NCBI GenBank assembly: GCA_963920765.1
Contig: OY987244.1
Coordinates: 22,362,358 to 22,426,357, forward strand
DNA length: 64,000 nt
From: Ulota crispa
Taxonomy: Eukaryota > Streptophyta > Bryopsida > Orthotrichales > Orthotrichaceae
Reading direction: 5' to 3'
Positions 15,840 through 50,544 of this stretch are shown piece by piece; within the stretch, counting starts at the first letter, position 1; the number at the start of each line of letters is the position of its first letter. A model generated the notes under the pieces. It was not told the origin of the DNA and made no database searches. It worked only from the letters and a program-made list of their open reading frames with translations. The position numbers and the translations under genes were made by a program.

Positions 15840-15947
15840 TACGCGCTGGAGAAAAACCATTGTGAGAGTGTCAGTCCAGACAGTGTCACGCAGAACATTT
15901 TGTGGCAAAGAGTTCAAAGAAATACTTGGAATGCGAAAGGGTCAGCG

Positions 15948-20527: not shown

Positions 20528-20532
20528 TGTCC

Positions 20533-20552
20533 TGATGGAGATATCTCCATCA
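20533..20552. repeat. perfect 20 bp palindrome at the LTR edge
   Basis: TGATGGAGATATCTCCATCA is identical to its reverse complement and starts five bases inside the LTR. It recurs at 28942-28961, and with a worn left edge in the solo LTR at about 40811-40828. Confidence 0.85.
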
Positions 20553-20794
20553 TATAGATATTCGTTATATGTTTATGTTTGTGTTGATTTCAATAAATCA
20601 ACAGTTGAGGCAAAAGGGGTGGTCGTGGTGAGGATCACGGTTTGGTGACAACGCAGCGGCCATAGATTCCAGTGCGCTGCGCCGTCTTGTCACATGCACA
20701 ACTCAGGGGAGTAGGTAGCGGGTTGGCTGGGCCAATTTCCTGCCTCACTAGCTGCCAAGCCGTGAGCCGCCGTCACCGCTCGACGAGTCCGATG

Positions 20795-20845
20795 GGATTC
20801 GAACCCGGACCGGCGGGCGACCAGAGACGACCGCTTCTCCAGCCA
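20795..20845 (-). repeat. tRNA-like (Pol III promoter-like) segment inside the LTR
   Basis: On the minus strand, GGTTCGAATCC (20805 to 20795) is a canonical B-box. TGGCTGGAGAAGCGG (20845 to 20831) resembles an A-box 25 nt upstream. The spacing and arms do not give a good tRNA cloverleaf, so this is at most a tRNA-derived relic, such as a captured SINE. It is repeated identically in the 3' LTR. In the solo LTR its CpG-containing positions have changed. Confidence 0.4.
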
Positions 20846-22131: not shown

Positions 22132-22197
22132 GAAGACTTGAAGACTTGAAGACATGAAGACTTGAAGATCTGAAGATATGAAGATTTCAAGAGGAAT
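22132..22197 (+). repeat. GAAGACTT-type short tandem repeat
   Basis: Seven or so degenerate copies of an 8-9 bp unit (GAAGACTT, GAAGACAT, GAAGATCT) near the inner third of the LTR. It is also present in the 3' LTR and the solo LTR. Confidence 0.7.
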
Positions 22198-22736
22198 GTT
22201 TTGGGTTTATTTTTTATGTATGTGTGGGATGTGGCTTTGTTATTCCTAGCCGGTTTTGGAGGCTCGTTTGTCAATTCATTTCCATTCTGTTTTGTAAACC
22301 TTGTTGCGGGCAGTTTGGGTTAAACCAAACTTAACCCCATTTATTGTCGTGGTGACGAAGTGGGATTAATCACCCACATGGTCGAGACTTGCTCTGTTCT
22401 CACGATCTGGAGTTTTGGCCAGCAGATCGTGAATTTGATTTTAGGATCCCGTCATACGGACGGCAGCTCGTGTCTGCTGTCCCGATCTACCCGTCCCGTA
22501 TCCAGTGGGCTCTTATCCCTACCTTGACCCTTATACCCTTAGAGCCAGCCACAGGATAGGCCAACAGAAGACTGAAGATTGAAGATTTGAAGAGAAGATC
22601 AAGATTGACAACGTTTTCAGTCGGCAACGCACGATCGCAGCAAGACACCCTGCGTGTTCCCAAGGCGCGCTCCTCTCAACCCGACATTTGGTGCTTCCAC
22701 TGAGAGAGCTTTGGGGCGATTATTGTGTTTGTTGAT

Positions 22737-28700: not shown

Positions 28701-28926
28701 ATTGGATGGGACTTCTCTGCGCGTGCCTGTTGCTAGTAAACGAATCAAAGCTTTTCGAAGGAGTGGAAGATTTCATCATGAAGACCTTGAGGAGATTTTT
28801 GACCCTCAAGAGGTGCGAAGCCACGAAGGAGCTGAAGATAGAGATGACGATTTGAAAGATGCAGAAGACAACCAAGATATAGAGGACGAGCAAACTTGGC
28901 ACATACCGCAGGATGTGCAGGTTTAG
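22737..28926 (+). pseudogene. gag-pol region of the Ty3/Gypsy element (broken)
   Basis: Parts in order: gag-like from about 22737 to 23950; a long charged linker; an aspartic protease-like region around 24850-25170; reverse transcriptase around 26030-26800; RNase H around 26980-27400; integrase core around 27800-28400; and a C-terminal stretch to 28926 with a GPY-type motif (RWFGPYVV). No chromodomain is evident. The region is interrupted about six times and is treated here as a fossil. A purine-rich tract (AGAGAGGG, 28925-28932) next to the 3' LTR is in the place of a polypurine tract. Confidence 0.88.
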
Positions 28927-28936
28927 AGAGGGTGCA

Positions 28937-31095
28937 TGTCCTGATGGAGATATCTCCATCATGTAGATATTCGTTATATGTTTATGTTTGTGTTGATTTC
29001 AATAAATCAACAGTTGAGGCAAAAGGGGTGGTCGTGGTGAGGATCACGGTTTGGTGACAACGCAGCGGCCATAGATTCCAGTGCGCTGCGCCGTCTTGTC
29101 ACATGCACAACTCAGGGGAGTAGGTAGCGGGTTGGCTGGGCCAATTTCCTGCCTCACTAGCTGCCAAGCCGTGAGCCGCCGTCACCGCTCGACGAGTCCG
29201 ATGGGATTCGAACCCGGACCGGCGGGCGACCAGAGACGACCGCTTCTCCAGCCAACCAAGTCCACGACTTGGCGACTGAAGACAAGCGTTTGACGCTATT
29301 ATATGCTCGCAAGGGCACGTGGCCACTTTACGATGGCATTTATTTTGTAATTTAATCATTTTCATATGTTTATCTAGATGTTTTGGAAGGCTCATATATT
29401 TTGCCTTTGTTTGAATAAAAATACTAAGGGTTTAGAAGTCAATAGGAAAGGTGTGAAAGGAGAAAAGGTTTGGCATCTATGGTGGGGTTAGGATAGGGAG
29501 GGCATGGGCTGATGTGCCTCACCTCCCTACCTTAGATAGGGTCGAAATTGTGGAGGAAAGATCCCTTAGTTGTTGGAAGTTAGTGTATGAGTGTTGGTGG
29601 GAAGAAGGAGAAAAATCCCGAAACTTTGATGGGAGATTTTTTTCTGTGTATACGTGATTTTGAATTGAAATTTGAGGAGGTTGTTTCTTGTGTGATTACC
29701 TTTCCAAAATGAGTTTGCAAGTTTGATTTGAAGTTGTGATGCAAAAGTTATGAGTGTTTGAATTTTGGAGTCAAAAAGCCAAACTATGAAAAAAGGCTGA
29801 GACTTCGACAAGCCATAACTTATGATCTGTATATCATTTTGCAACAAGATTTGGAGAGAGTGTTTATCTTATTATTGGCTTTCTAGAAAGTCTTTAAACT
29901 TGAGGTTTGAAGCTTGGACAAGAAAGTTATGGAAGTGTGAAGGTTTGGAGGTGGCTGCCCTTTTGTTAGGAGAAAGCCGAGATTTTGAAGAGCTACAATT
30001 TTTGGACAGTATGAGATTTTCTTTTCAAAATTTTAGGAGTGATAGTTTGTTGTCATAGCTTTTCAAATTGTCTTTAATCATTTCATTTGGAGTTTTATTG
30101 AAGAAGTTATAGTGGGTAGAAGTTGCGGGTTTGGGTGCTCTCTAAAAAATTGAGACCCACACTTTGATTGACTAGAGCTTTCGGACAAAGTTTTGTTTTG
30201 AAGTGCAAATTTTATGGGTTGAAGCCAGTGATATCATCTTTCTAAATTGATATTACGTTTCTATGGGTGATGTATAGAACAAAAGTTATAGAGGTTTTTA
30301 GAGGCAGTGTTTAGTTTGTAAAGAGGAAGAAGAGCCTCTACTTTGAACTCGCATAACTTTTGGACAGTATCTTAGATTGAGTTGAAATTTAGAGGGATGT
30401 TAGAAGGTTAGGAGAGCTTTTCAAATTGCTATTACACTTAGCATTTGAATCTTTGAGCCATCAGTGGCATTAGATAGAAGGTTGCTGCTTTTTCTAGGAC
30501 TTGTTATTTGTGATTTTCCCCATTGTTTTTATTAAAACATGAAGACTTGAAGACTTGAAGACATGAAGACTTGAAGATCTGAAGATATGAAGATTTCAAG
30601 AGGAATGTTTTGGGTTTATTTTTTATGTATGTGTGGGATGTGGCTTTGTTATTCCTAGCCGGTTTTGGAGGCTCGTTTGTCAATTCATTTCCATTCTGTT
30701 TTGTAAACCTTGTTGCGGGCAGTTTGGGTTAAACCAAACTTAACCCCATTTATTGTCGTGGTGACGAAGTGGGATTAATCACCCACATGGTCGAGACTTG
30801 CTCTGTTCTCACGATCTGGAGTTTTGGCCAGCAGATCGTGAATTTGATTTTAGGATCCCGTCATACGGACGGCAGCTCGTGTCTGCTGTCCCGATCTACC
30901 CGTCCCGTATCCAGTGGGCTCTTATCCCTACCTTGACCCTTATACCCTTAGAGCCAGCCACAGGATATGCCAATAGAAGACTGAAGATTGAAGATTTGAA
31001 GAGAAGATCAAGATTGACAACGTTTTCAGTCGGCAACGCACGATCGCAGCAAGACACCCTGCGTGTTCCCAAGGCGCGCTCCTCTCAATTCGACA
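28937..31095 (+). repeat. 3' LTR
   Basis: 2159 bp, same ends and internal landmarks as the 5' LTR. It differs at about six positions by eye, near its outer edge, its middle (around 30250) and its last 130 bases. Confidence 0.92.
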
Positions 31096-34000
31096 CCGTC
31101 TGCTTTTGTACTCCAGTTTCTAACTGCGATAAGTTGGGGCCGGGGTACCTTTGCTACCTTTGGCAATTTTAGCAACACACTTCATTTTGGAACTCTGTTG
31201 CATAGCATGGCATTTAACACCTGACTTATGGCTCACTCTACGTATGTGCCACTTGAAAGGGTTGCACTGGCTTTCAAAAGGAATTCAAACATATACACTT
31301 GAAGTAGTCCCAGGAGCCACAACAGGTGAATGATTAGAAACAAGGGAAGGGGCGCTTGACCTTATTTTCACTCGGGGATGAGAAATGTTAAACTTATCAA
31401 GTCGATGTGACTCTCCCTCACTGCCAATTGCAATGTCCACTTTTCTTTTAAGACTTCCAAAAATCTCCTCTCCTTACAAATGAGGAATTCAAGTTTCCAC
31501 ATCTATGCCTGCGGGCAATGCATGCAGAGCCATTGCTAGTTTCTTGGGGTCCCCACTACGCCTTGCTACTCTCAACTTCAACGCCTCTTTGGTCAAACTA
31601 GAACTTGGAGCTTTACCATTGAGGTAAGCTCTGTAATTGGTCATTTGCATCCAAGCCCAAATATTGTCATCGCAAGTTGCTTCAAATAAACTGTCTCCTT
31701 GGTTTCCAGACATCCGTAACCATTTGTTATGGACTCTCTTTGATAAGTTGCACATTGGCATATTTGCCAATTCATCCAAATCCAAATCCTGCATAACAAG
31801 AACATTTATAAGATAAAAACTGGGCATAGAAAGAAAAATAAAAGTACACAAATACATCATACTGCAGAAAAGAATGTCAAGAATACTTTAGAGACCCAAA
31901 AACAAACCGGCAATCATAACAAATTGACCAAAGTTCAATACCATAATTTTGGAAACTTCATGTTTACTTTCACGGAAAGAGCTTCAGTCGGCGCCGACTG
32001 AAGTCCAGGAGGTAAAGATTTTGTGTCTATCATGACATGATCTACTAGTTATTGGACGCAGAACTTACACAATATACATGAATGGCTTACACACTAAAAA
32101 TTCAGCATAATCCTACTCTATGGTGTATTTGAACAACGTTAATGCTATTATGGGGAAAAGAGGTATATCACCTCAATGTCAATGGCCACAACCGTAGACA
32201 ACAAATGACTTGAGGCATATGCTTGCCATACAAAGTTGCAGCATTGCTAGGTGATCAAATATATATCAAACCATGAGAAATAAAATTGTTCTCTAATTAT
32301 AACACTAGTTTTTCATAAACAGAACATTCGAACTCCAACAAATATCAATAAAAGGGACAGTTCAAATATTGCTTATAAATCATACCTCCTACATCAGTCT
32401 AAAAAAGTCATCAAGAAAATCCTCATACCTGGCCAACTTGAGTATTTCAAGGTCCAAAAAGCTACCATACAATGATATTTTGCCAAAATAGACGATTTTG
32501 ACACAAAAATCTTGGTAATTCTGCCAATTCTAACAAGACAGCCCTCATACAAACAGCAATCAAACAAGGTTCATGGTCATAAAATACTCTAAAAAAGGGT
32601 TACAAAAAACATATACCGGCATCAACAATATTCAAATACAACAAAATCAATTGAAGAGCTCATTCCATCAAGTTCTGATTAAATGGTTTGCAAAACAAAT
32701 CAAACTCTGAAATTAGAAACATGAAGAGTGACTTGACCATTTGATCAACACCCCCCATTGCCAATATCAAAAATGCCAAAACGCAAGCCAGTGTTCTAGA
32801 TGAGTTAACCCATCTTTTGTGGTAGCATCGGCAAAGAATTCGGGGATGTGACTCTCCAATTTTTAGTAAACTCCTTGAGATAAAAAATAGGGTCAATTTT
32901 ATTCATTAAAGATAAATTTTATATCTTTTTTAGATTTACCATAGCATTGGAAAAATATTTTTTGCTTCATTATATGTAAAATAGGGTGGTATATAATCCT
33001 CCATTTTAGAATACTATAGAAATAAAAAGGGTGGGAATTACACAATTATCCTAAAATAGTTTAGTAGGATGAGTGTGGGGTTTAGATTTCATGAGCAATA
33101 TGGATGAAAAATGGTTTTTTCCATCTAGGTTTTGGGTTGTAATGGTTTAGGGTTAGGAACGGGTTGTAGGGTAATTGAAGAAGGGTCAAGCGTACTGGCA
33201 AAGGCTGGCATTGTTGTGGAATCTTGAGAGTAGGGTTTGTGCTAGCAAGCACATTGGATTCTTTACATGATGTTATGCTGAGCTTACTGTTACTCTTGCT
33301 AGCACTTAGGATTCTCAGATTTGAGATTTCTTTCTTGCTGTTTGCAAATTTTCTCTCCCTAGATTAGCTAAGCGCGCTAAAAGTGGCAGCAAGGGTGCTT
33401 TGCAATTGAAGTTTTACATCCTCCTTACAAAATTTTCCTCATAGCAATGTATTTGCAAGCATGCAAGTGTGAGCTTAGTGGAGTTTGCATTCAAGGTTGG
33501 ATTTGTTTTCCTTATTGGGGAGTTCGGGGTTGGATTTCTTAACTTCTCCCAGCAATGATGGTGGTGGACGTCGGCGTTATTGCTCAGTTCTTTTTGCAGT
33601 TCTCGGCAATAAGAATTTGGGTTCACGCTTAGATTTATAGTTATTTGCTTTAGCTTTATGTTCTTTGAAGCATTTTCTCTTTGAAATGTGCTTTTTTGTA
33701 ATTCAAATGCTTGTAAGGGCTAAAGTCATAAACCCATTGTATAAATATAATTTTTTCTTAGGATACTTTTGTGTTTGTGAAAAAAGTAGGGTCTGAAAAT
33801 TTAGGTCATATAACGATTTAGAAATAAGCATAGGGTACCCTAAAATACGCTGAAGTAGCTTTTTATCTAAAGAAAAGGAGGAAAAAATTACCTTAAAGAA
33901 TTTAAATACCCTCCATTTAATTACCCCATTATCATAGGTGGTATCCAATCGTAAAGGGGTGTGACCCCTCCCCCCGAGGCAGAGAACCACCAGTATCGGA

Positions 34001-36005
34001 TAGCAAGGTATCAACTCTCTGCTACTTCCATGGTCTTGGAGTCTTTGTACTGCTTGCAGAGTTTCATATGTAGAGACTGCAAAGCTTCTTTGATGTGTTT
34101 CTAAGTGTGTTTGTGCAACGAAGTGCTCCAATGTAAGAGGCATGTCCTCTCACAATTTTGCAGTACATCTTTTAGTGAACCAGTCCCAAAAACTATATGG
34201 ATTGCTCTCCAATTTGCCATGGCATTATCTGCCATGAACCCCTTGAAGTTTGGCTTTGCAACACCTCTTGTTGCCATTATTGCAATCAAGGATTTCCAAA
34301 ATTGAACCTGGATCTCGATATCTTCTAACTGCATATAACACGTAGCTATGGTCATGACTTTCTTGTAGCTACTATCATAGACGTGACAAGCCATAGTAGT
34401 CCATTCTTGAACCCGTTTGACATGATCAAACTTGACCCAAGCATTCTATAAATCTCCCCCCGCTTGCATTTGCTTTACTAAATCCACACCACTTTCTGGT
34501 CCATCCGTGAGCATCTTGAACAAGTAGACTTTCTCTATCCTTTGGCCAAGGAAAATACTATCGTGTTTGAACTCGGATTTGGATAAACGCTTCATTGTCA
34601 TAATTTTGTCAATGATTCCACCTTTATTATTGGACCATAACAAAGATATATGACTGCGGATATTAGAACTACTCAAGTATTGAAATTTGTCCATCACCTC
34701 GTTCCTGCCCACGCTGTCCAGCATTGTCTTCTCACTTGCCCCATCATGGAAAAGACGGTTTGTTACAAATTCCTTCTTGGTTGATAATGCAATTGCTGAG
34801 ATTGTGGCCTTTGGGGTCTTTGCTACAGCGGAAGCTAACAATTCATTGATCTCATTTGCAGAATCTTTGTGCATTCCCTTTGTGACAAGGTGGTTGTGAG
34901 CGCTGAAATGAATAGCGGCCCTGCTCATTCTAAAATTTGTACCGTACACTTAACAGATTCTTGCTTCACATGATTTCAAACATATTGGAGGAGACTTGCA
35001 AACTTTACAAATTATTGTGGAGTCCTTTGGCACAACTCTACCAACCAAAAAAGGGAGTGACGTGCACCCTGCCCACTCTGGGTCATTTTGTGCAGCTGCA
35101 CGTTCAAGGTATTGACACTAGGAGTTGTCACACTCTAAATGTCCAGCACAAAGTGCTTTTTGAAATTTAAGCCCACTATCATTCTGAATATTTGTGGTGA
35201 CCAATTTGCACCACAGATGTCCATCATATTGCTTATCCATCCCTTCTAAGTTCCTTGCTCCTGAGGCAGAAGCATTTGATTGACAAGGAGGAAGTTCGAA
35301 TACAACATCACCATCAAAAATAGGTGGTAAGGAAGCAACTCTATGATGTTTTGTGGTATTGAAATCTAACAGAGACAACTCGTTCCTATAGTGATGCATT
35401 CTAGAAAGCTTTGTTAAACAATCCATAATACTGAGCACTTCAATAGAATTAGGATGCAATGGGGGACGGCTGCAATCAAACCGGTTCTCCCCAATATTGC
35501 GCAGTCCCAATACACAACAGTGTGGAGGCCGCACAGTGATAACTTCTTTTGATATGGTAGAATCCCCTCTCATAGGCTTCACTGGAGAGTCACACTCAGA
35601 CTCACTTGACAAATCTACAACAACATCCAATTTCTCAAGCTTCACTGGCAGTGGCAATGATACATTCTCCGTGCTTACGCTCAACTTGGAAAGCACAAGA
35701 GAGGACAATGTTGTTGGAATATGGGGCATGTCAACACTGGAACCACTATGAGGAAGAATTTCCTTTTGGAGTTGCATTGAAGCTACAGAAAGAGTTAGTC
35801 CGTAAACCCTGAAACTACTTTCATAAAAATTCCAAACCTGAACACCATCAACAATAGACTTGACTGTTGGGACGCACTGAACCAATTCTTTGATAGCTGA
35901 TATCTTCTCTTCCTCAACATATATTGACAATTTGTTAAAACAAAAACAAACGTGCAGAAGATGATTGGAGACAATAGCAATGCCGTCACTATCAAGAGGA
36001 AGCAC
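31096..36005 (-). pseudogene. MULE-like, zinc-finger transposase-type gene (spliced, decayed)
   Basis: Read on the minus strand, coding stretches run from about 36005. The N-terminal third is a Ser-rich region of no known domain. Around 35160-34950 is a Cys/His cluster (CAGHLECDN...CQYLERAA, then CKVCKSPPICLKSC) that fits a WRKY/GCM-type zinc finger as found in some Mutator-like transposases. Around 34440-34105 is a stretch (FKGFMADNAMANWRAIHIVF ... CLLHW) matching the D...C..H pattern of a MULE transposase core. A donor near 33892 and an acceptor (TTGTTATGCAG) before 31788 define an intron of about 2.1 kb. The next exon (31788 to 31096) has MCNLSKRVHNKWLRMSGNQG and is cut at the LTR edge; the remainder is 20527-20059. 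A few in-frame stops are present. Role, if it was ever active: transposase or a domesticated derivative. The family call is moderate. Confidence 0.6.
31982..32003. repeat. 22 bp perfect palindrome
   Basis: The core TTCAGTCGGCGCCGACTGAA with one more pair on each side is fully self-complementary. It lies in the large intron of the MULE-like gene. The same core (TCAGTCGGCG/CGCCGACTGA) is the centre of the 128 bp repeats at 40045-40290 and 45505-45900. Confidence 0.85.
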
Positions 36006-38149
36006 TAGAGGGATGTCTCTCCCAGTTGCCCGTATGTAAGCTACACTGAGGAATGACTAGAGCTCCACAACAAGTGACAGCCAAATGACAAACTAAGGAT
36101 AGATATAGAAACAAACTTGGACCTAGGTGTTACAAGTAGGCGACATGCGAGTTCCACCTTGTATGGCAGTGGGATGATTGTAGGATGAACTTTTTAGGCT
36201 AACAGAGGTAGGTTGGTTCAAAGGTAATGAGGTTTAAAGGACCTAATCAATTTTTAGAGTAAAGAGAGGGGGTGGTATAAAATTATTGACATCAACTACA
36301 ATGACAATAAAAAAGTAACATAGAATCATATCAAAACTTGCAGAGAACAATGAATGCTTTATTGAGCTTTGCAGAAACTCACTGCATATAATGCTAATCA
36401 ACTAAAATAATATGATAAAGGACCTATATGGGTCGAAATATTCAAACCACACTAGCATAGAAGGCAGCAAAGAGTTTAAACCGGGTTGTTAAATTATAGT
36501 CATATGAAAAACTACAATCATACATTGGTCCAATTTAGAATAGGGATGACCCAATAAGGATCCGAGACCCAGCCGTTCTCATCAATATTAAGAAGCCAAG
36601 AGTAGCCACATTAATGAAAAGAATCTGGTTAAATGGAATCAAATGGAGATTGAGAAGCTGTACAAAATCAAGACAGTATTTGCTTATCACCCGAGTAGAC
36701 TTACTTCAAAGAGTTATTCATAGATTTGTTCTCTTGAAGTTCAAAAACAATGCAACTCTGAACTGGTACTACACACAATATTGTAGGTGAGTGATAAGGA
36801 TATCTTTATTTACTAGCCACCACTTTGATGTTTTCATTATTTGAATTTGAAAACTTAAAGAGGGACTCTAAGAAAATGAATTGAGCGCAGCACATTGCAA
36901 AGGACTACCTGCCACCTGGTACCACTGAGTCATTGACAGCAATTGGATGTAACTATTGCACAAGTAAACAAGCTTAACGGCTGCGTTTGTATTTTGGTTG
37001 TTCATAGAAATGTTGGATAGTATAAGTAAGAAGTTTCATTGCAACAAAAGAACTATATAGTAGCAACTAAGAACTTGCGGTCTCACATATCAGATTCATA
37101 TAAGACCAGGATTTCAGTAATTAAGCTATAGTGCTTTGCAGGCTACTAGATAATGAAGAGACGGACTAAGAGTATTTCCAAAATACTAGTGAGACTTGAT
37201 AAACTGCAGAAAGTGCAATTGTTTCCAGTTGCTGAGTGTCCTGAAGTAGAGGTGGCTGGCTTTGTCTTATCAAATATTTAGCAGCAAGGAGGACAAGTTC
37301 ATAGCCAGTCATCTTGCACAAGTTGTGCGGAAACATCACAAAAGGTTTTTGAGTTTTCGACCTCATTCCCTAGAACTTCAGCCTTTGCTAGTTGTGTATT
37401 AGTATTGCATGGTAGTCAGTTAAAATCAAGAAATGATGCAATGACGTATTCTTACTTTGAGTCATTGCCAACTGGCAAGTGTAGAGCACTGTAAAGGGGG
37501 CCCACCATTCATGCCACATGGCACATTGGCATTTGTTCTAGTTTTGATCGTTCTACATTCAACGTCATTGTTTTTGAGTATGAGCGCTTGTCCTAGGATT
37601 TTGACTCGTCCGTTCCTAACTAGCTTAACCTGTTAGGGTTTTTGCATTTGCACACCAAGGCATTAGAATCGGAACCCAACCCCTTTACTGGCAAACGCTA
37701 AAATCGACTCAAGGTCGTTTGCCCCTGTGTTGCAATGTTGCATCTGGCCGGCGCTCAAAACATCGTGGGGAAGTCAAGTTATTCAATCAATATTAGCACC
37801 CGCCTCTAGGTTATTAAGTTTCTCGATCTGCAAGAGCCGCTTTGGTCATCACAGCATCAAATGAAGGATTAGAATGACGTACTCAAACAAGATGATTTTG
37901 AGTGAGCTTGTATTGCTGAACTGCATAATCCTGGCTAGAAATTGCAAGGGTTGAGTCAGGGCTTCTGGAATGTGGAACTTCCTTCAAAAACTTTGTAGTT
38001 CAATTAAGATTCATTCAATGCAATGTTAGTATCAAAGATTTAGTTTCATTATCAAACTAATTAGTGTCAATGCTTACAGGTTAGGGTTTGCGAGAAAGCT
38101 TAGTGCGGTTGTTCCTAATCCAAGCAATGACTGCAACTTATACGGATTG
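36006..38149. other. intergenic region between two divergent genes
   Basis: No gene is supported. It separates the minus-strand MULE-like gene from the plus-strand ParB/methyltransferase pseudogene, so promoters for both would lie here. Short open frames on both strands have no recognisable content. Confidence 0.4.
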
Positions 38150-39968
38150 AGGTTTTGTAGTGAAATAATGTGGATTATGCATCACTAGAAGAAATCCAAA
38201 CCTGACTTCAGAGGTGCCTTCTTCCATCATGCAGGGAAGAGACTTGCCGGAAACAATGTCGCAGTCGCGTTAGCTAAGGAACCGGGTCGTCATCAAACTA
38301 GAGTTGAGCAAAGACCAAAGCAAGCACAAGCATGCAGATCCATCTAGGAATGAGGTGAGCGATGCAGATCTATCATTGTTATCTGGAACTTGTGAATTCC
38401 AAACAAATGTGGGGGAGAATTGTGTGGAGTTGTAGCACTGGCGTTCACGTCGATGTTCAAAGAAGGAAAGGTATTCAAGCCAGTGCAAAGTGTCATTAGT
38501 GACGCAAACGATTGTTGGTAGAGCGGTTGTCAATTTAAATGGAATTGATACAAACCAAGTTAGCTTATGAGTCACCTATTGCTACAGCTCACCTTGGACC
38601 ATTGACAAAGTAGTGAGCCTCTTGGTTTAGGCAATCATTGCAACTTCGACAAAACCGACATCGCATAAGAGGTATCGTCTTCAAACAAAGACACAAACAC
38701 GTCAAAGAAAGTGGTGGCCAAAGAGGGCATCCTCACAACCTCCACGGTAATATACACAAACCCCACCCATTTGCATTGGAATCATGGAATGAGAAATGGC
38801 CTTGTTCCTGGCGTAATGATAGGTAGAATTCACAGCTCAACATGAGAGACTCACTTGTCCTCCTTGATAACTATTGCATTACAAGTGACGACCCTGGAGC
38901 ATAGCCCACCCGGCGAGAATTCGAACTCTCCCCACACTGACGCCAGCAAGCAGCCAAAAATTGGAGACAATGGGGACAAAGAGGTAGCAGAGGGGGAAGA
39001 AGGACCAGAGAAAGACGCTGATTTATTGGAGTACAATCTTTCTCGCAACCAAAAGCTAAATGTTGTGGCAACAACTGCAGGATTACGCCTACAGCCAGAG
39101 CATTTATCCAGGGCTTGGATCCCCTTGTGCCGCCTCATACTGATGCCAATGGTTCAGCCAACACTCGCTTTTGACTTGACAAAACTTGAGCACGAGTTTG
39201 TTCATGGGTATTGTAACAACTCACCCGTCTTCTATGTTTCCACCACAAATGAAAGTGGCGAGGGGACAGACTTCTTGGCAGATGAAGTTGCAACATGGGG
39301 AAAACTTTGGTAGGCAAAGAAAAATAGATTTTTGCTGCAAATAGCAAAGCATCTTGAACTCATTCACATAAAGAACTCAAAGTTCTTTATTTGCAATGAC
39401 AACCATAGAAAAATAGCCTGGATGAACCACATCCAGAAGTTCTACGTTGAGGACCCCCTCTGGCACATTAGCGTGGACTGCATCATTTTTGTGACAAAGG
39501 AAAAATTTAACATTATTATGTAGATTATGCATGACATCAACAAGTAAGTCTAATCCATATAGCAACCTACATCATTTAAGTTCTGAATTCATTGCTGTCA
39601 AACTATTCAAAGTTTGTCAAAAAGGACAACAATGATGTTTGAGCATCCTTCACTGCAGGCATATAGAGGATTTGCATGTGAAGACAAACCTGGTTCACAC
39701 CATGTACTGGACGCAGACCTACAATTTGCTACTAGCAGAAAGTTTTATCAAGCTCATGCGCCCTGCCAAGTTGAAAAACGGAAAACAGTTTAGTCAAAAA
39801 GGACTTGGTATAGCGTTACTGGAGACATCTTTACAACCTTCATGTTTAGGGAATGTTCTTTTAGCCATTCCAAGCATTTTGGAGAAATGTGTCTAAAAAT
39901 GATGAGAAGAACTAAGTTTAGTTGAAATGACATTGAGTATGCTTGTGCCAAGTTAATATGACTGAAGG
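38150..39968 (+). pseudogene. ParB-like N-terminal part of a spliced ParB/methyltransferase gene
   Basis: The plus strand holds decayed exons. Around 38280-38560 a stretch includes LSKDQSKHKHADPSRNEVSD. From about 38870 to 39543 the reading includes RAWIPLCRLILMPMVQPTLA and then FFICNDNHRKIAWMNHIQKF. The order, an I-P-x-x-x-L start followed by an [D/N]-x-N-H-R-x-x-A-W block, fits the ParB/Srx fold, where the consensus is DGxHR or DGERR. An exact GT-AG intron (39544-39658, 115 nt) joins in phase to HIEDLHVKTNLVHTMYWTQT, which ends near 39900. In-frame stops show it is not functional. It and 46177-49624 appear to be one gene, because the latter begins at a splice acceptor and continues the same strand. 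ParB domains fused to DNA methylases are known from phages and bacterial mobile elements. Confidence in the domain is moderate. Confidence 0.5.
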
Positions 39969-40044
39969 GTGAGTGAACTGGACAAAGTGCGCATGGTTTT
40001 TGAAGAAATGCACAACGTTATTAAGACTTGCATTGAAGCACAAG

Positions 40045-40290
40045 CCGAGCGATGCGCGTGCCCCCAGTAGCTCAGTCGCCGCCGACTAAACCGCTGGGGG
40101 CGCGCACATCTGCCTCCAAGCGCGCATCTCACACTTCCATAGTCTGCCTTGTGTCCATCAGTATTGCACTTGGGGGCGGATACACGCGCCCCCAATGGCT
40201 CAATCAGCGGCGACTAAGCCGTTGGGGACGCGCGCATCCGCCCTCAAGCGCACATTCCTCGCTTCTTGTGAGTGCTCAAACCTCCCCCTT
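40045..40290. repeat. palindromic 128 bp repeat, cluster 1 (about two units)
   Basis: A C+G-rich block with units of about 128 bp, each a long imperfect hairpin around GCTCAGTCGCCGCCGACT-type centres and joined by CTTCCATAGTCTGCCTTGTG. The same unit occurs three times at 45505-45900. The contrast with the AT-rich surroundings is strong. Confidence 0.75.
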
Positions 40291-40803
40291 GAAAAGTAAG
40301 CGCAAGCACAACCAAGTTCTAATCTTAGCTGGAATTGAGTTAATCGTGAAAAAATAGCATGAAGGTAGGTTTGAATTGTAGATATTCAACCTAAAGTTGC
40401 CTTCCAAGCAATGATTCTTTTCTAATGAACTTACAACATACAATGATGAGCAAAGAAATAATTGATACGATACATCAAGCGTGGCTAGTTGCAATTGCAG
40501 CATAGGTGGTCATACCTCGTCACGGGGCTTGACATACCCTTTAACTGGATGGTGAGCAGCCTCCATTTTCAGGTGCGCATGCTGGATTGAGTGTTATAAT
40601 AATTCTATTCTAGAGACATATAATCACAACACTCTAGTGGGTTGATACATCAACCCGTTCTAATGGACTAATCTATGCTACTACCTTGTGACAAATAATC
40701 ACAACCTAAATTGGCTTCAATAACCTAGGATTGAGGATTATCTTAATCCTTTGGATTAGTCACAAGATATTCCCTTATCCAGTCAAATAGAAGAATATGA
40801 CGG
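40291..40803. other. short stretch without recognised features
   Basis: Between repeat cluster 1 and the solo LTR I see nothing beyond ordinary AT-rich sequence. Confidence 0.5.
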
Positions 40804-42919
40804 TGTCATAATGGAGATATCTCCATCATGTAGATACTCGTTATATATTTATGTTTGTGTTGATTTCAATAAATCAACAGTTGAGGCAAAAGAGGTGGTC
40901 GTGGTGAGAACCACAGTTTGGTGACAGCGCAGCGGCCATAGATTCCAGTGCGCTGCGCCGTCTTGTCACATGCACAGCTTAGGGGGGTAGGTAGCGGGTT
41001 GGCTGGGCCAATTTCTTGCCTCACTAGCTGCCAAGCCGTGAACCGCCATCACCGCTCGACAAGTCCGATGGGATTCAAATCCGGACCGGCGAGCGACTAG
41101 GAACGACCGCTTCTCCAGCCAACCAAGTCCACGATTTGACGACTGAAGACAAGCGTTTGACGCTATTATATGCTCGCAAAGGCACGTGGCCATTTTACAA
41201 TAGTATTTATTTTGTAATTTAATTATTTTCATATGTTTATCTAGATGTTTTGGAGGCTCATATATTTTGCCTTTGTCTGAATAAAAATACTAAGGGTTTA
41301 GAAGTCAATAGGAAAGGTGTGAAAGGAAAAAAAGTTTGGCATCTATGGTGGGGTTAGGATAGAGAAGGCATGGGCTGATGTGCCCCACCTCCCTACCTTA
41401 GATAGGGTCGAAATTATGGAGAAAAGATTCCTTAGTTGTTGGAAGTTAGTGTATGAGTGTTGGTGGGAAGAAGGGGAAAAAGCCCGAAACTTTGATGTGA
41501 GATTTTTTTCTGTGTATATATGATTTTGAATTGAAATTTAAGGAGATTGTTCCTTGTGTGATTACCTTTTCAAAATAAGTTTGCAAATTTGATTTGAAGT
41601 TGTGATGCAAAAGTTATAAGTGTTTGAATTTTGGAGTCAAAAAGCCAAACTATGAAGAAAGGCTGAGACTTCAACAAGCGATAACTTATGATCTGTATTT
41701 CATTTTGCAATAAGATTTGAAAGGAGTGTTTATCTTAGTATTGAGTTTTTAGAAAGTCTTTAAACTTGAGGTTTGAAGCTTGGACGAGAAAGTTATGGAA
41801 GTGTGAAGGTTTGGAGGTGACTGCCCTTTTGTTAGGAGAAAGCCGAGACTTTGAAGAGCTACAACTTTTGGACAGCATGAGATTTTCTTCTCAGATTTTT
41901 AGGAGTGATAGTCTGTTGTCATAGTTTTTTGAATTATCTTTAATCATTTCATTTGGAGTTTTATTGAAGAAGTTATAGTGGGTAGAAGTTGCGGGTTTGG
42001 GTGCTCTCTAAAAAATTGAGACCCACACTTTGATTGACTAGAGCTTTCAGACAGAGTTTTGTTTTGAAGTGAAAATTTTATGGATTGTAGCCAATAATAT
42101 CATCTTTCTAAATTGATATCACATTTCTATGGGTGATGTATAGAACAAAAGTTATAGAGGTTTATAGAAGCAGTGTTTAGTTTGTAAGGAGGAAAAAGAG
42201 CCTCTACTTTGAACTCACATAATTTTTGGACAGTATCTTAGATTGAGTTGAAATTTGGAGGGATGTTAGAGGGTTAGAAGAGCTTTTTAAGTTGCTATTA
42301 GACTTAGTATTTGAATCTTTGAGCCATCAGTGGCATTAGATAGAAGGTCGCTGCTTTTCTAAAACTTGTTATTTGTGATTTTCTCCATTGTTTTTATTAA
42401 AACATAAAGACTTGAAGACATGAAGACATGAAGACTTGAAGATCTGAAGATATGAAGATTTCAAAAGGAATGTTATTCCTAGCCAGTTTTGGAGGCTCGT
42501 TTGTCAATTCATTTCCATTCTGTTTTGTAAACCTTGTTGCGGGCAGTTTGAGTTAAACCAAACTTAACCCCATTTATTGTCGTGGTGACAAAGTGAGATT
42601 GATCACCCACATGGTCGAGACTTGCTTTGTTCTCACGATCTAGAGTTTTGGCCAGCAGATTGTGAATTTGATTTTAGGATCTCGTCATACGGACGGCAGC
42701 TCGTGTCTGCTGTCCCAATCTACCCGTCCCGTATCCAGTGGGCTCTTATCCCTACCTTGACCCTTATACCCTTAGAGCCAGCCACAAGATAGGTCAACGA
42801 AAGACTAAAGATTGAAGATTTGAAGAGAAGATCAAGATTAAAGACGATTTTAATCGGCAACGCACGATCGCAGCAAGACACCCTGCGTGTTCCCAAGGCG
42901 CGCTCTTCTCAACCCGACA
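40804..42919 (+). mobile_element. solo LTR of the same Ty3/Gypsy family
   Basis: 2116 bp, TGTCATA...CGACA, aligning end to end with the LTRs of the full element. It is flanked by ACGG on both sides (40800-40803 and 42920-42923), so it arose from a complete insertion followed by LTR-LTR recombination. Divergence from the full element's LTRs is several percent in the stretches I compared, many of the changes being C to T or G to A. It also lacks about 43 bp present in the full LTR at about 22203-22245. It is therefore much older than the full element. Confidence 0.88.
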
Positions 42920-43130
42920 ACGGGGTGCGGATTTTCGTGTGCAATATGATGCAAAAGCAAATCCAAAGATCTCTACGTGCTTCAGAACAATGGTTAATTT
43001 ACTAGTGCTAAGCCTAAAGGTTGGTAAGGGCAATTAAGGGCTTGATTTAACAATTCAAGAAGTCAAAATTTGTCATGAGAAGGAGGGGCGGACCCCTGGC
43101 CTAGCAGGGGCGGCAAATCCGTAGCTCAAA

Positions 43131-43820
43131 GGCTAGATTGATGAAAATACTGAGAGGCTAGATTGATGAAATTGCCAAAGCTAGAGTGATGAGATTGCCA
43201 AGGCTAGATTGATGAAGATGCCGAGAGCTAGACTAATGGAAGTGCCAAGGCTAGACTGATGAAATGCCGAGAGGCTTGGACTAATGAAAATGCCAAGAGG
43301 CTTGGAGTGATGAGAATGTCGAGAGGCTAGATTGATGAGAATGTTGAGAGGCTTGGATTGATGAGAATGCTGAGAGGCTAGACTGATGAAAATGCTGAGA
43401 GGCTAGACTGAGGGGAGTGTCAAGAGGCTGGACTCCGAGAAATGCCGAGGCTGGACTCATGAAAAATGCCGAGGGGCTAGACTGGAGGGAATGCCGAGGC
43501 TTGGACTAATGAGAATGCCAAGAGGCTTGGACTGATGAAAATGCCGAGAGGCTAGACTGAGGGGAGTGCCAAGAGGCTAGACTCATGGAAATGCCGAGGC
43601 CAAACTCATGAAAATGCCAAGGGGCTGGACTGAGGGGAATGCTAAGGCTTGAACTGATGAGAATGCCGAGAAGCTTGGACTGAGGGGAATGCCAAGAGGC
43701 TGGACTGTTGAAAATGCTAGGGGCTAAACTCATGGAAATGCCAAGAAGTAGACTCAGATTGAGAGTGCCGAGAGGCTAGACTGATGAGAATGCCAAGAGG
43801 CTAGACTCAAATTGAGAATA
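43131..43820. repeat. degenerate minisatellite, unit about 20-25 bp
   Basis: About 30 irregular units of the type GGCTAGACTGATGAAAATGCC(GAGA). Units vary in length and sequence, so this is an old array. No coding function is supported. Confidence 0.85.
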
Positions 43821-45504
43821 GCTCGGGACTATCCTGGAAGTGAGAACGCCAAGAACTCAGTCTCAGGGGGAGGTGACTGCTGGTTGGGGACGATGGATCA
43901 TATCATTTGCCAAAGGAATCTATGGCCAAGGCTGGGCCTCAAGCTGAAAGATTTAGCTAGCACAGTGACTTTTCAAAGAGCTAGCCTGTGGAATCAAAGG
44001 AGCTGGCCAATGTGAGGCTGAGCTGTCATGATTCCTCAAGAGCTGCTGGGAAGGCTTGTGATGCGGGGGCGAGGCGGGGACGGCATTCTGGTAAGGTTTT
44101 GGTAAGGGAATGGTAAGCCAAGGCTATGGACCATGACGTCTCTCTGACTATGACTCTAAGGGCTGACCAGACCCACAATGACTAATGGAGACTTCTATGA
44201 GGTATGGAAAAGCGGCATTGCTAGTCGTAATCCAACCCCCTAGTGGTTAGTAAGACACTTCTAATCTCCACTAAGGAAACCACAACAATCTTAAGGAGAT
44301 GAAAGGAGTGGGAGGTGGGTCTAAGTGAGAGGGAGGCCAAGGACAAGTGGATAGTGGGGGCAAGGGTGAGTGATCAAAGGAAAGGTTCTAAGCATGGAGG
44401 GGAGGAGCCCAAGTGATAAGTGGCCAAAGAGTGTTGAGAATGATGGCTTGGGAGGAGGTGGGCCTCCCTTTATACATTTAGGAGAGGACATCTTGGCCCT
44501 CTATCTAGGAGATCCATAGATCCCTTGAAATCTACCTAAAATCTAAGAAAAACTCAAAATGGATGAATTTTGGATGAATTTGCCATAACTTTTGGAGCGT
44601 AGCTCCAAACAACAAACGGACAGTGGTATTGGATTTCTTGAACCTAAAATAGTTGGTTTTGGTTGTTCACACTTCCAATTCTAAGCTGCAAGGCGTCGGG
44701 AATCTTGAATGAAGGGTTAGGGATGGATGGATGAAAAACCCATAATTGGTAATTCATCCCAAATTGAGGTATTGACTTTCCAAGGTCTTCCAACGTTGTC
44801 AAGGGAGCCAGGAAACACTCCTTGATTCCGTCAATTGGGCTCTAAATAGATACAATCTTGAAATTGGATGTCGCGCACGTTCTTAAAATTGGATGGATGT
44901 TGCCATTTGAAGTCTTGCCGCTATCGAAACGAACTGAAACTTGGGGGATCTTCATAAATCCTTGAGAAACTCTTCTATGAATTTTGGTAGCATTTTATTG
45001 CCATTTTCCAATCTCCTTTGACTGGAGCCGATTGGTAGCCTAACAAGGTTAATTGTTTGGAATCACGCTCTCTGAAAAGCGGAAGGTCTTAGAAACCTTA
45101 GGTGTGGACAAACTAAATTGACAATGTGACTTGACTAGGTGATGTGGCCCTTGGCCATGGCATAACTAATCTAACCCTCTCTAATTAGGCTAGTGGAGAC
45201 TTTTGGAGGGGATCCCAAGTCCCATGTGACTAATCCTAAACTAACCCTCTCTACTTAGGTTAGTGGGGACTTTTGGAGGGGATCCCAAGCCCCATGTATG
45301 TATGTCACTCAAACTAACTAAAAACTACTATATCTCACTAAACCTCTCCTAATGACATACCAAATGGAATAGGGTAAATGGTGTACTGCTAACCATTTGG
45401 TTTAACTAATCTAAATCAACATAAATGGCTATTCCATTTATATTGATGTAATTTCAAAGCTAAGTAAAACAAAAAATGAATTCAAGACTTCTAGTGCTAA
45501 ATCT
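43821..45504. other. gene-free stretch with a 70 bp direct duplication
   Basis: Mostly unassigned sequence. At 45171-45300 a unit of 70 bp starting CTAACCCTCTCTA and ending near CCCATGT occurs twice in tandem with few differences. It lies between the minisatellite and repeat cluster 2, inside what is probably an enlarged intron of the ParB/methyltransferase pseudogene. Confidence 0.5.
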
Positions 45505-45900
45505 AAGACTTACACTTCCATAGTCTGCATTGTGTCCATCAGTATTGCGCTTAAGGGCAGATGCGCATGCCCCTAGCGGCTCTGTCGGCCGCAACTGAGC
45601 TGCTAAGGGCGCGCGCATCCACCCCCAAGCGCACATCTCTTGCTTCCATAATCTGCCTTGTGTCCATCAATATTGCGCTTGGAGGCGGATGCGCGCGCTT
45701 CTAAGTGCTCAGCCGGCGGCAATTGAGCCGCTACGGGCTTGTACATCCGCCCCTAAGCGCGCTGCGCTCGCTTTCATAGTTTGCTTTGTGTCCATCAGTA
45801 TTGCGCTTGGAGGCAGATGCGCGCATCTCCAATGGCTCAGTCGGCGGCGACTGAGCCATTGGGTTGTGCGCATCCACCTCCAAGCGCGCAACCTTTCCTT
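45505..45900. repeat. palindromic 128 bp repeat, cluster 2 (three units)
   Basis: The phrase TGTGTCCATC occurs at 45531, 45659 and 45787, exactly 128 bp apart. Each unit contains a long hairpin. In the third unit it spans 45803-45887 with arms of about 40 bp, centred on GGCTCAGTCGGCGGCGACTG. C+G content is far above the surroundings. Confidence 0.85.
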
Positions 45901-46176
45901 TTTTAATTTAGAAAGAATGCTGCTTCTGTGCTTTTGAGGCAGATTTAGGGACTTGCCTATGCATCGTTGTTGCTCAATAAGCTCTTCGGTGGTCGGCTGA
46001 TAGTGCTCCGACACTTGATTAATGCTCATTATTATTGTTCTTTTTTATTAGTTCAGTCGTTCTTTGCAATTGCGCATTCATTAGGTGTTGCTAATTTGAA
46101 TAGTTTATTTCATTTTTTCTTGTGCAAATGACAGTCTCATAATTATCATTCATATTTGCATGTGCTGATTATGCAG

Positions 46177-49100
46177 CAAGAGTTATCGATGGCGGCGGAC
46201 CACACTTTGAGGAAGTACCAAGAGACAATGCTTGTTGAAAACTAGACTGAGGCCAAAGCTGCAGATGCTATGGGCAAGGGTGCAAAGGACAAAAAAAAAC
46301 AGCTATATATGAAGATGATGAAGCTTGTTGCTGTTGCTAACCCAGCAAACTTGAAGGAGTTTTTGAAGGAGGTAAGGTATCAGTGATCCCTTTTTGACAC
46401 AATTGTTTGTGTTCTAGATTTTGTTACTGATGTTTGATCTTATTTCCTTCATAGGCGGAGAAGCATTATAGCTCAAACAAGACTCCCAAGATGAACTAGG
46501 AGAAGCTGCAGATTGTGGCCATTTGTCAAACAAGTGCTTATCACAAAACCAAATTCCTGAGATGGTGGAATTCATCCATTCCATCAAGAGAGTCATGGCG
46601 TTTCCCTCCTAAGCCGGTAGTGGAGGACCCGCTTAAATCTTTTCTGGAAAAATGTGTTTGGTATGCCGGGGTACAATTTCTATCCCTAAACTTTATGGAT
46701 TTTTTGAGATCACGTATGATGATGTTTGCCAAATTTTGCTGTATTCTCTGCACTCCAGGCTCTTTGCATGTTGCTGATGTTCTTATAATTGGTGCTTTAG
46801 GTTGAAGATGCAGTTGTTGAGTACTTTGACTCTATTGTTAAGAAGGACAATGTCCCTGTTGACATGTCTGTCTCAATGGAGCCGCAGTCCTTGCCCAAAT
46901 ATATTGAGGCATGGCAAATGAAGATTTGGAATAAGGAGTTTCACTCATATTTGAAGGGAAATTCTTGTTTCAAGAAAGGTGACAATTTTTCAAACTTCAA
47001 AGGATCCAAACAAGCTACCCGGCGTGTATTGTTTCGGTAAGTATGTGGGCACACCACATGAGTTTTTATTTCCTTGACTTAGATCACACTTAATTTTTGC
47101 GCCCTTTTCTTGTTGTATGTTCATAGTTCTTATTCTCAACTTGACTATACGTTTACTGCTGTTGTTGTTACTATTCTTGTTTTGTTAAATGGTTGTTGCT
47201 GAATTTGGAGTTTCTTTGGTGTTTCAAGAGTCTTATGTAGTGTTTGGTTCCTGTAGTATGTATTCATTCTAGAAATAGTTATTTCTTGCAAGTTGCCTAA
47301 CTCTTCTGGTCTTTTGGCGGGTCATGTTCACTTGATTTATCCTTGTTGTTGCATCATACTTGTAAATGACAATACCATCCTTCTTGTGGTTGTGCTTTTT
47401 ATATTACTGCAGGTATTTCAAGTATGAGTTGCAGGCAAAGAAGGCTGTCCATCGAGAAGACCTTCCCCCCTTTCTGTCGTCATGGCTTGACACTTATTTG
47501 TCTAAATGTATGTTTACAACTTTTAGATTCGCACTTTCACTACCTCTCATCTTGCCAGCGATGCCTAATACCTTGATTGCCCCTTAGTATTCATGCACCC
47601 TTCTGAGGTAGAGCTTTGGAAATCACTTGAAGGGAAAGAGGTGGTGGATATGAATATTCCTGAATTTGCTGGTATGGACGAAGAAACCAGGGAGAAGGCA
47701 ATCACTAAAAGGATTGCGGCGGATAAGAAGAAGGAAGATAAGGAGGTACAAGTTCTTGCTCAGAAAGCTACTAGGGATGCTGAGAGCAAGCAAAACTAGA
47801 AGAGAAGCAAGCTAGGCAAGAAGAGAAGGCCACTGCTAAAGACGTGGATGGAAAAAGCAAAGCAAAGTGGAGAAAGGCATCCCTAGTTACCAGCAACATC
47901 CCCCCTTCTTCTTTGCTGAGCCTCTCCCAACAAGGCTTGAAGCACACACTTGTTCTTAGTCAATTGTCTGACAAAGACAAGGAAGTCCTTGAGGATGTAG
48001 ATATTACATCTCTTGGTGATGATGACAATAATGGCATGGAGGAGCTCATCGTCAATCTGTCCATGGTCACCGTGGTTCAAGAGATGGCGGCCCCAAAGCC
48101 TAATTTGTTTTTCCAAGTCATTGACTTTGTAAAGAAGGTTTGTCTCTATCCTTTGCAATGTTCTTGTTTAGTGCTGAGTTTTAGTTTTGGCACCTTCTGT
48201 CTTTGCATGTTGTGTCTGCAATTGTTCCTCGTGGAGGCTAAAAATTTGTGTTGGCTTGTTTTTTTCAAGTTTGCGTCTTTAAAGGAGAGATTGTTCTTAG
48301 GTATGGCAGGTACAAATGTGGCGGTCAATCTTGTGCTGGTTGACTGCCCCAAGAACCTTCCTGTTCCTAGGATTTTTGTTAATGATGAGGATATTCTTGA
48401 GTGGAATAAGGATGTTGAGTACACCCTTCTCAATGTGGCCTTTGCTTTCTCCGAGGACCAGCTTCATGATGATGGTTCCCTAATCATGATGCATTCTTAT
48501 TGCACAGACTCAAAGAGCTGCATTGTTGGTCTTTGTGAGCTTTACAACATGGTTGTAAGGAAGGAATGGATTGGGATGAATCGCCTTCATGGGACCTTTG
48601 CAGTTGAAGACAAGAAAACGGTTAGTTTGACATACCTTTGTTAGTTGATTTACTCCTTTGGTTCTATAGTTCATTTTGTCCTAAAGTTCTAATGCTACAG
48701 CTTGCCTAGTTTGTAACAGACCCAAAAGTTTTTCATCACTCTATTGGTGAAATACCTAGGACGCTCTTGCAAATCCAATTTCTCTTTTAAGGTCTCCTCG
48801 TCCATGAAGAAACTAGATCAAGACCTTGGCATAGATGATGTCTTGCAGAATTTCTATGGGAGGGACGACCTTGCAATGGACGGGGATACACCATGGAGAG
48901 GACCACGCAAGAAGAGCCCTAGGCTTTTGCAGTTGCTTATTGAAGTTGCAACGGATGAAGGCAACGTTGTTGTTGATTGTACAGTTTCAACAGGCAGGCT
49001 TCACTCTATCATGTTATCTTTTATATTTTTGGAGAAGCTGATTTGTTGTTTTTATACCTTTACTAAATCTTCTTTCTTGCGCAGGTGCCTCCCTTATTGC

Positions 49101-49624
49101 TTGTTGTGGCATTGGTCGCAATTTTGTTGGTGGAGGGAGATTCAAGGGTCTTTGATGGTGTCTTGAAGCCAATGATTTGAGCTCCAAAACTGATGGCGGC
49201 CGTTCAAGATTCAATTCCTTCTCTTATTGCTAGCCAAGATCCGGATTTAGCTGTCATTGTCCCTTGCAAATTCACCTAATTAACAAGGGTTGGTGAGTAA
49301 GTTCCTTAAAATCCCTTCTTTCATTTGGTATTGTACTATTTTGTTTTTTTATTAAGCTAAAGTTGCATTCTTCTATGTTGTAGCCATTCTGGAGTGAAGA
49401 CAAGGAAGCATTCTAAAGCAAGGCTCATGAAGGAGGTTTGGGTTAGCTCTAACAAAACATATTTCATGCCTTCTTATGCTGAAAAGATGGCTACTGCATT
49501 TGATTGTTGTGGTTCAACACAACCTTCCACTTGTTTGCCTTTTTATGCTGGCAATGTTCATGAGTTCTTAGATGTTATGGCAAGTGAAGGAGAGGATACA
49601 TCATCAGACCCTAGTTCCACTTAG
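46177..49624 (+). pseudogene. beta-class DNA methyltransferase-like part of the spliced ParB/methyltransferase gene
   Basis: A series of exons joins in phase: 46177-46371, 46455-46670, 46801-47036, 47413-47507, 47588-48137, about 48301-48620, 48720-48993, 49085-49292 and 49384-49624. The intron at 48994-49084 has a GC donor. Near 48320-48360 the reading NLVLVDCPKNLP sits where amino-methyltransferases have motif IV (DPPY); here the catalytic motif is altered. Later, KKSPRLLQLLIEVATDEGNV and VVDCTVSTG followed by ASLIACCGIGRNFVGG match motifs X and I of the beta class (usual form: KP...LL...I...T...G..VLDPF.GSGTT..AA...GR..IG). The order IV, then X, then I is that of the beta class. Middle exons hold a Lys/Glu-rich coiled-coil-like part (KRIAADKKKEDKEVQVLAQK). 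A few in-frame stops and a frame change show it is not functional. If it was once active it would have modified DNA amino groups. Confidence 0.6.
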
Positions 49625-50544
49625 CCATCCATTGACAAAACCTTCTTGGGAATATTGAACCCCAAGTTTCTGTTTCTTCTAGAGTGATCGGTTTTGTCTT
49701 CCCTATGCTTGAACTGGACCATCATCTCTTGTGTTACCATCTTTTTCCTCTACATTTCATCTCTAAATTTGCATTTTTAAGCTCTAATGTCTAAACCACT
49801 CCTTATTCTGACCCTTAACACACGGTTATAGGCCCTTGTATGATAATTTATTAAAATTATTTTCCCCGCTCACATGCTCACATGCTTACATGCTCATGAA
49901 TGCTCACACGCTCGCCCCCTAGCAACCCTGGTGCATTTATCAATTCCCTTTTATAAAGCACAATTTAGAAGAAGAACCAATTGATGGCTTTTAAACAAAA
50001 GTTGCAGACTATGAATCACAAATCTTATCTATAGATGAATCTACCATTGCACTAAAAACCTTTCTTATTAAAACATGAAACAATAAATTCAAAAATTCCT
50101 CTCAATTAGATTATAGAATAAAAATAATCGTTTTTACAGAGATTTTTTATCAATTGAAATAATAACCTCTACTGCTGGTCTTTTTAAAATGATTTGAGAA
50201 ATTATTCTAGAAGGGTCATTTTTTAAACTAGAAAAGTTAGTTCTTAAGGTGAAACATTCTTGTACTTTTTAAATTACACACAACTTTCATAATATGTTTT
50301 TGAAATCTATACTAAATGTAAGCTAAAATTTTAACATAAGAAACTAGTAGCATGTGGATGGATGAACCAAGAAGTTTTTCTAAGCATGAGATTTCTTTTT
50401 GTTCATCAAATGTTCAAATTTGAATGATTTGTTTTGTAAGGGCACAAATAGGTAGCTTCACCTCCAAAATTGTTGCTGGCTTATTGTAGGAAATTTTAGA
50501 ATATTGAAATTCTTTGAATTTCATATAATGCTTCCATTTGATCT
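49625..50544. other. 3' flank with a short tandem repeat
   Basis: At 49867-49913 degenerate TGCTCACA units (CTCACATGCTCACATGCTTA) form a short tandem repeat. The rest is AT-rich with no gene supported. Confidence 0.5.

Follow-up and report, generated by a model that had tools for sequence, protein, structure and literature searches.

A dispersed DNA transposon in the moss Ulota crispa with a many-exon cargo gene related to beta-class methyltransferases

Does a decayed, spliced gene of the moss Ulota crispa that resembles a DNA modification enzyme stand alone in the genome, or does it belong to a larger unit? The question was raised by a stretch of 64,000 nucleotides of contig OY987244.1 (GenBank assembly GCA_963920765.1, positions 22,362,358 to 22,426,357, forward strand), referred to as the window. 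A first-pass annotation read the interval 38150-49624 as the fossil of a lone plant gene, joining a ParB-like domain to a beta-class DNA methyltransferase. We found that the locus is one copy of a DNA transposon with imperfect inverted ends and a target duplication, and that the annotated interval was too narrow (Table 1). The methyltransferase-like gene, hereafter the cargo gene, forms its right-hand part, and it is accompanied by a partner gene, labelled gene A.

The bounds of the unit were drawn from genome-wide end patterns, from the similarity of a second copy to both ends and from the flanking duplication. A 10-bp target duplication was present in both of the copies with both flanks read, which are the window copy and copy C11. 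In C11, GTACCCTCAT stands on both flanks (10/10 identical), and on the left flank its similarity to the window reaches approximately position 18950, skipping 20523-31135. A reversed-pattern control for the left end gave one match, against 80 for the pattern itself, which is loose and also caught at least four right ends among the 80. The right-end pattern, read inwards, matched the genome 80 times at three mismatches or fewer, with no match in the control. Conserved sequence was found in an alignment of 14 right ends that included the window, and within it DNA similarity between copies ends at a single right-hand point, position 49930. Common to both ends is GCTAGG..GC.AGC, an imperfect inverted repeat of about 21 bp.

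Exons of the cargo gene and gene A recur together across the genome. The search covered 274.8 Mb and scores approximately 150 candidates, so that copy counts are lower bounds: at least 138 matches for the first exon, 131 for the motif IV exon, 136 for the motif X and I exon (X/I) and 137 for the piece of gene A at 34101-34445. Dropping second pieces of the same copy left 133, 127, 135 and 125 places, respectively. Pairing counts were based on the listed matches and are independent of the choice of 20 loci described below. Among listed places, the first exon had the IV exon downstream, in the same orientation, in 62 of 133 cases, compared with one on the mirrored side, none on the other strand and about 0.36 expected. 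Gene A lay upstream in opposite orientation at 85 of the 133 listed first-exon places (mirrored side 2, other strand 0), and X/I followed IV at 95 of the 127 listed IV places. At 66 of the 133 listed places, the first exon had a methyltransferase exon as well as gene A nearby. The random expectation for the pairings was below 0.5, and the mirrored-side and other-strand controls gave 0-2. A right end adjoined X/I in 43 of 80 cases. Among the 66 two-gene places, a right end was found in 20, a left end in 13 and both in 10. This is a dispersed element with two divergently transcribed genes, the right-hand one having many exons, and it is about 12-18 kb long in eight of the ten both-end copies (12.1-18.1 kb; the window copy spans 31.0 kb and one other 40.4 kb).

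The terminal sequences, the target duplications and the recurring partner gene show that what was amplified is a transposon. A lone gene fossil is refuted by the counts of ends and of partner genes, and because of the genome-wide pairing and end counts we regard the window locus as a single family member with heavy interruptions. The same pairing (62 of 133) upholds the first-pass annotation in treating the first exon and the downstream exons as one unit. In a single tally, 47 of 80 right ends had a cargo exon within 12 kb. The other 33 had none listed within that distance, and shorter or cargo-free relatives may therefore exist.

Twenty loci were read, most of them among the better-matching family members. 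They were hand-picked for having the first exon near the IV exon, and that pairing is present in them by choice. All 20 showed identical order and strand for both parts of the first exon, for IV, for X/I and for the last exon. The p2 block followed the first exon in 19, with only a weak tblastn match to the p2 tail in L034. Matches to exons e1, e2 and e3 came from 19 loci, L036 being the exception, and a few weak matches were out of order or on the opposite strand. In the window, the segment from IPLCRL to NDNHRKIAW runs in a single frame at approximately 39119-39421, VLVDCPKN lies at approximately 48333-48356, SPRLLQLLIEVATDEGNVVVDCTVSTG at approximately 48915-48995, and GRNFVGG starts at approximately 49114, all on the forward strand. 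These blocks were where the annotation had placed them, on one strand and in order, and each exon has more than 100 relatives. The annotation called this copy dead, and its reading frame is indeed broken: there are two stops in the first exon and one in each of e1 and e2, and the frame shifts downstream of GRNFVGG. Stops interrupt many of the copies that were read, as in old transposons.

Table 1. Features of the transposon copy in the window (window positions).
Feature	Position	Strand	Remarks
Whole DNA transposon copy	18964..49930	.	30967 bases including nested insertions
Left target duplication GTGCCTTTAT	18954..18963	.	9/10 identical to the right one
Right target duplication GTGCATTTAT	49931..49940	.	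window copy
Left terminal sequence CAATGACGCTAGGACGCAAGCC	18964..18985	+	80 genome matches at <=3 mismatches
Right terminal sequence CAGGGTTGCTAGGGGGCGAGCGTGTGAGC	49902..49930	-	imperfect inverted repeat of the left end
Gene A	31489..36056	-	head-to-head with the cargo gene; probable transposase; interrupted by Gypsy insertion
First cargo exon (block called ParB-like)	38846..39547 (start approximate)	+	in-frame stops 39311-39313, 39521-39523
Second cargo exon p2, HVKTNLVHTLY block	39663..39790 (end approximate)	+	tblastn
Exon e1	46183..46370 (approximate)	+	match across loci
Exon e2	46455..46670 (approximate)	+	match across loci
Exon e3	46813..47037 (approximate)	+	at least 115 genome matches
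Exons e4, e5, e5b and introns between	47412..48137 (approximate)	+	e4, e5 unmatched in some loci
Methyltransferase motif IV exon (IV)	48270..48620	+	genome matches, locus order, profile comparison
Methyltransferase motif X and motif I exon (X/I)	48795..48989	+	genome matches, profile comparison
Exon with motif I helix and motif II (GASLIACCGIGRNFVG...) (I2)	49084..49290 (end approximate)	+	frame broken here
Last cargo exon (C)	49388..49624 (start approximate)	+	locus order
Gypsy-type long terminal repeat (LTR) retrotransposon inside gene A	20523..31135 (approximate)	+	domain matches, L053 alignment gap, LTR-like repeats
Solo LTR of the same Gypsy type in the large intron of the cargo gene	40798..42910 (approximate)	-	repeat matches, sequence

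The relation of the downstream exons to methylases is visible only by profile against profile. With 19 rows of the IV, X/I and I2 exons as query and ten beta-class enzymes (YhdJ and nine phage proteins) as reference, the comparison reached a probability of 95.6, an E-value of 1.1e-8 and a score of 63.2, whereas none of 100 column shuffles did as well (maximum 23.5). The IV exon alone scored 29.7 against a shuffle maximum of 25.9, and the X/I exon alone 34.8 against 19.9, with 0 of 100 shuffles reaching the true score in either case. Motifs IV, X, I and II followed in this order through one single alignment. The same rows gave a probability of 0.06 against an unrelated ParB-type reference. Searches with single profiles found little: PF01555 matched one of 14 X/I rows (E 0.02) and none of 19 IV rows, and in the genome it gave four matches, the best at E 0.22 and none over the cut-off. 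A PDB profile search gave nothing for IV and one uncharacterised protein for X/I (E 0.11). The beta-class catalytic motif is (D/N/S)PP(Y/F/W), and the prolines and the aromatic residue of motif IV matter for catalysis. Of 21 copies, the window and the 20 loci, 20 were readable at the cargo motif IV, and 16 of these have D-C-(P/L/S)-(K/E)-N; motif I is roughly D-C-T-x-S-T/I-G-A/S in the nearer copies. As judged from the profile comparisons, which bear out the annotated IV, X, I order, the C-terminal half of the cargo protein derives from a beta-class amino-methyltransferase.

Copies of the cargo exons were also compared for selection. Median dN/dS (the ratio of non-synonymous to synonymous substitution rates) between copies was 0.18 for the first exon, 0.25 for e1, 0.13 for e2, 0.15 for e3, 0.27 for e5b, 0.21 for IV and 0.28 for X/I. 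In shifted frames these seven exons gave 0.77-1.79, against 0.13-0.28 in frame. The seven exons tested were under purifying selection, and the cargo protein was therefore probably functional while the family spread.

The identity of the first exon is less settled, and the annotation as a ParB-like domain was not confirmed. No Pfam ParB match was found in 26 first-exon fragments at E up to 1, and a genome search with PF02195 gave no match at E 0.001. We compared the exon by hhalign, with and without its variable middle, with E. coli YbdM and six phage relatives and with three phage fusions. The ParB-type comparison did not rise above column shuffles, 5 of 60 of which reached the true score. In repeats, the true score was reached by 3-15 of 40 shuffles (four references) and by 3-26 of 50. 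The ParB/sulfiredoxin-like layout consists of a strand, a DG-x-HR loop, a helix and a strand. In several alignments the segment K-F-F-V-C-D-G-N-H-R-R-L-A, which precedes a predicted strand, landed on the DG-x-HR segment of ParB, without significance. The residues and predicted order of the exon fit this layout, but the fold predicted from 26 rows was poor, with a mean pLDDT (predicted local distance difference test) of 48.5. Two other matches were taken as chance. One was a quinoprotein, the sole match at E up to 10 in a PDB profile search (E 0.005), over an F-V-C-N-H-R stretch; the other was RDM1 (E 0.015), present in one of 26 members. A ParB identity of the first exon may serve as a lead and is not established.

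Gene A was followed in the window and in parts of a few copies. Its 3′ part (18964-20522) lies left of the Gypsy insertion, and its stretch is similar to locus L053. Its pieces gave no trustworthy Pfam or PDB match. Gene A is probably a transposase, and this role rests on its position since no transposase domain was recognised. The inserted Gypsy element matched RVT_1, RT_RNaseH_2 and Integrase_H2C2 over the Pfam cut-off, and rve just below it.

In 10 of the 18 loci having the p2-e1 interval, the large intron of the cargo gene contained tandem arrays whose periods range from 61 to 319 bp. By eye, their units are GC-rich, partly palindromic and different among many copies, some being common to close copies. 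In the window, GC-rich repeats of about 80-90 bp occur in both orientations at 40050-40250 and 45540-45890, and are matched by the same intron in other copies. A further tandem array, with periods of 148-174 bp and GAGGCTTGGACTGATGAGAATGCC units, lies between the solo LTR and e1 (43130-43802). Outside the element, a 295-aa open frame on the forward strand (15840-16727) is host-gene-like and has no Pfam match at E 0.01.

Two element classes were dropped. A CAGGG end suggested hAT, but the duplication is of 10 bp rather than the 8 bp of hAT. Helitrons have no target duplication and end in CTRR; here duplications are present and conserved sequence continues past CTAG. Target duplications of Mutator-like elements are given as 7-12 bp (PMC10741241) or 8-11 bp, with some families described as having no long terminal inverted repeats (PMC6446971). 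The 10-bp duplication fits these ranges, and the ends of the U. crispa element are an imperfect repeat of approximately 21 bp in place of long terminal inverted repeats.

We consider it fairly probable, and the best explanation, that the methyltransferase-like gene is the cargo of a two-gene DNA transposon in which gene A supplies the transposase and the cargo serves self-marking or anti-silencing. Gene A, as a Mutator-like transposase, would move both genes together. The cargo protein would bind the element's own DNA through its first-exon or methyltransferase-like domain, possibly at the intron tandem repeats, and would mark or shield that DNA so that host silencing is avoided. We infer action on the element's own DNA as the most likely use of the cargo. 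Several observations weigh against this explanation. Gene A was within 8 kb of only 17 of the 80 left-end matches (other strand 1), and 67 of the 133 first-exon places lacked one or both partners among the matches listed. No long tandem array (period of at least 61 bp) was seen in the intron of eight of 18 loci. The dN/dS medians come from pairs with computable dS only (47-161 per exon), and gene A has no recognised transposase domain. We infer the splice from p2 to e1, and hence one protein rather than two. The self-marking or anti-silencing role would be an analogy only. Motif IV is non-canonical, without PP in any of the 20 readable copies, and because PP is lost in every copy read, the methyltransferase-like domain may work by a different chemistry or may not transfer methyl groups. 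The protein may be a methyltransferase that is active with altered chemistry, may only bind, or may have another task in transposition.

Other explanations account for parts of these data. The cargo could be two genes side by side, the first encoding the first-exon domain and the second the methyltransferase-like part. The p2-e1 interval of 0.6-3.1 kb (18 loci measured) would allow this, yet strand and order are common to all 20 chosen loci and a GT-type donor follows p2 in L052 (less clearly in the other two copies read); we hold two genes to be rather unlikely. It is very unlikely that a host gene of prokaryotic origin, a ParB-methylase fusion, gained introns, decayed and was amplified by an unrelated duplication. 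The beta-class similarity is real and the broad order is that of phage ParB-methylase fusions, but the ParB profile tests fail and the ends, target duplications and recurring partner gene mark a transposon as the amplified unit. The annotation had proposed such a prokaryotic or phage source. The similarity alone suggests it, and no close relative was found in viral contigs (IV and the ParB-like block), prokaryote genomes or phages (ParB-like block only), scans that see close relatives only. Gene capture is frequent in Mutator-like elements, and the duplication length is that of a Mutator-like element; a Pack-MULE-like capture, in which a host gene would be carried passively and do nothing for the element, is nevertheless very unlikely given the strong purifying selection in seven exons and the retention of the first, IV, X/I and last exons in all 20 chosen loci. 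Giant virus insertions have been reported in the moss Physcomitrium (PMC12344493), and a remnant of one with DNA modification genes could have been endogenised here. The introns, the units with terminal sequences and target duplications, and the lack of a close relative in the viral contigs (IV, ParB-like) and phages (ParB-like) searched make this extremely unlikely.

The transposon with its cargo gene can be compared with several known systems. In the three phage ParB-methylase fusions (L068, L069, L070), N6_N4_Mtase was over the cut-off in all three, and ParB_N in one and just under in two. Their methylase half aligned with the cargo exons over 178 columns from motif IV to II (E 3.3e-5, 0 of 40 shuffles), whereas their ParB half was not significant against the first exon and their motif IV is DPPY. 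The N4-methylcytosine (4mC) methyltransferase of Marchantia (Walker 2025, as cited in PMC8885841 and PMC12344493) is described in PMC8885841 as having no additional domains and acting genome-wide. Compared by description only, it is likewise an amino-methyltransferase of bacterial origin in a bryophyte, and differs in those two respects. According to Kojima 2025 (PMC12730594), fungal DNA transposons of several superfamilies encode a TET/JBP dioxygenase with a proposed anti-silencing role. They too combine a DNA transposon with an accessory DNA-modification enzyme, but theirs is a dioxygenase, whereas the U. crispa cargo derives from a methyltransferase and has an additional N-terminal domain. 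Retrotransposons, also in charophytes, are reported to carry a C5 cytosine methyltransferase (de Mendoza 2018, PMC5890265). These are likewise mobile elements with a DNA methyltransferase, although the C5 enzyme is in a retrotransposon and the U. crispa relative of amino-methyltransferases in a DNA transposon.

VANDAL elements, which are MuDR families according to PMC12730594, encode VANC, described as a sequence-specific anti-silencing protein whose targets are fast-changing noncoding tandem repeats (PMC10398659). Like the U. crispa element, they are plant DNA transposons that carry an accessory gene, and their noncoding tandem repeats likewise differ from copy to copy. VANC is set apart by its description as a sequence-specific anti-silencing protein, and the likeness drawn here is one of description. 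We advance, as a doubtful idea, that a plant DNA transposon lineage may have turned a prokaryotic-type modification enzyme with a ParB-like DNA-binding module into a self-recognition protein. It would read or mark the element's own changing, partly palindromic intron repeats and so keep the element from being silenced, a second and independent VANC-like solution. No description of such an element was found in the open-licence literature searched, in which broad queries covered top-ranked titles only.

By analogy, the element would fit the pattern of mobile elements that carry their own epigenetic enzymes, which show the fight between genomes and transposons over DNA marks. The relation of half of the cargo to bacterial DNA-methylating enzymes suggests that the element may have acted on its own DNA. 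If this is true, parts of amino-methyltransferases would join dioxygenases and C5 methyltransferases in the toolbox of such elements, and selection would have retained a changed catalytic motif. The finding also cautions that, in plants, large gene families without a known function may turn out to be cargo of transposons.

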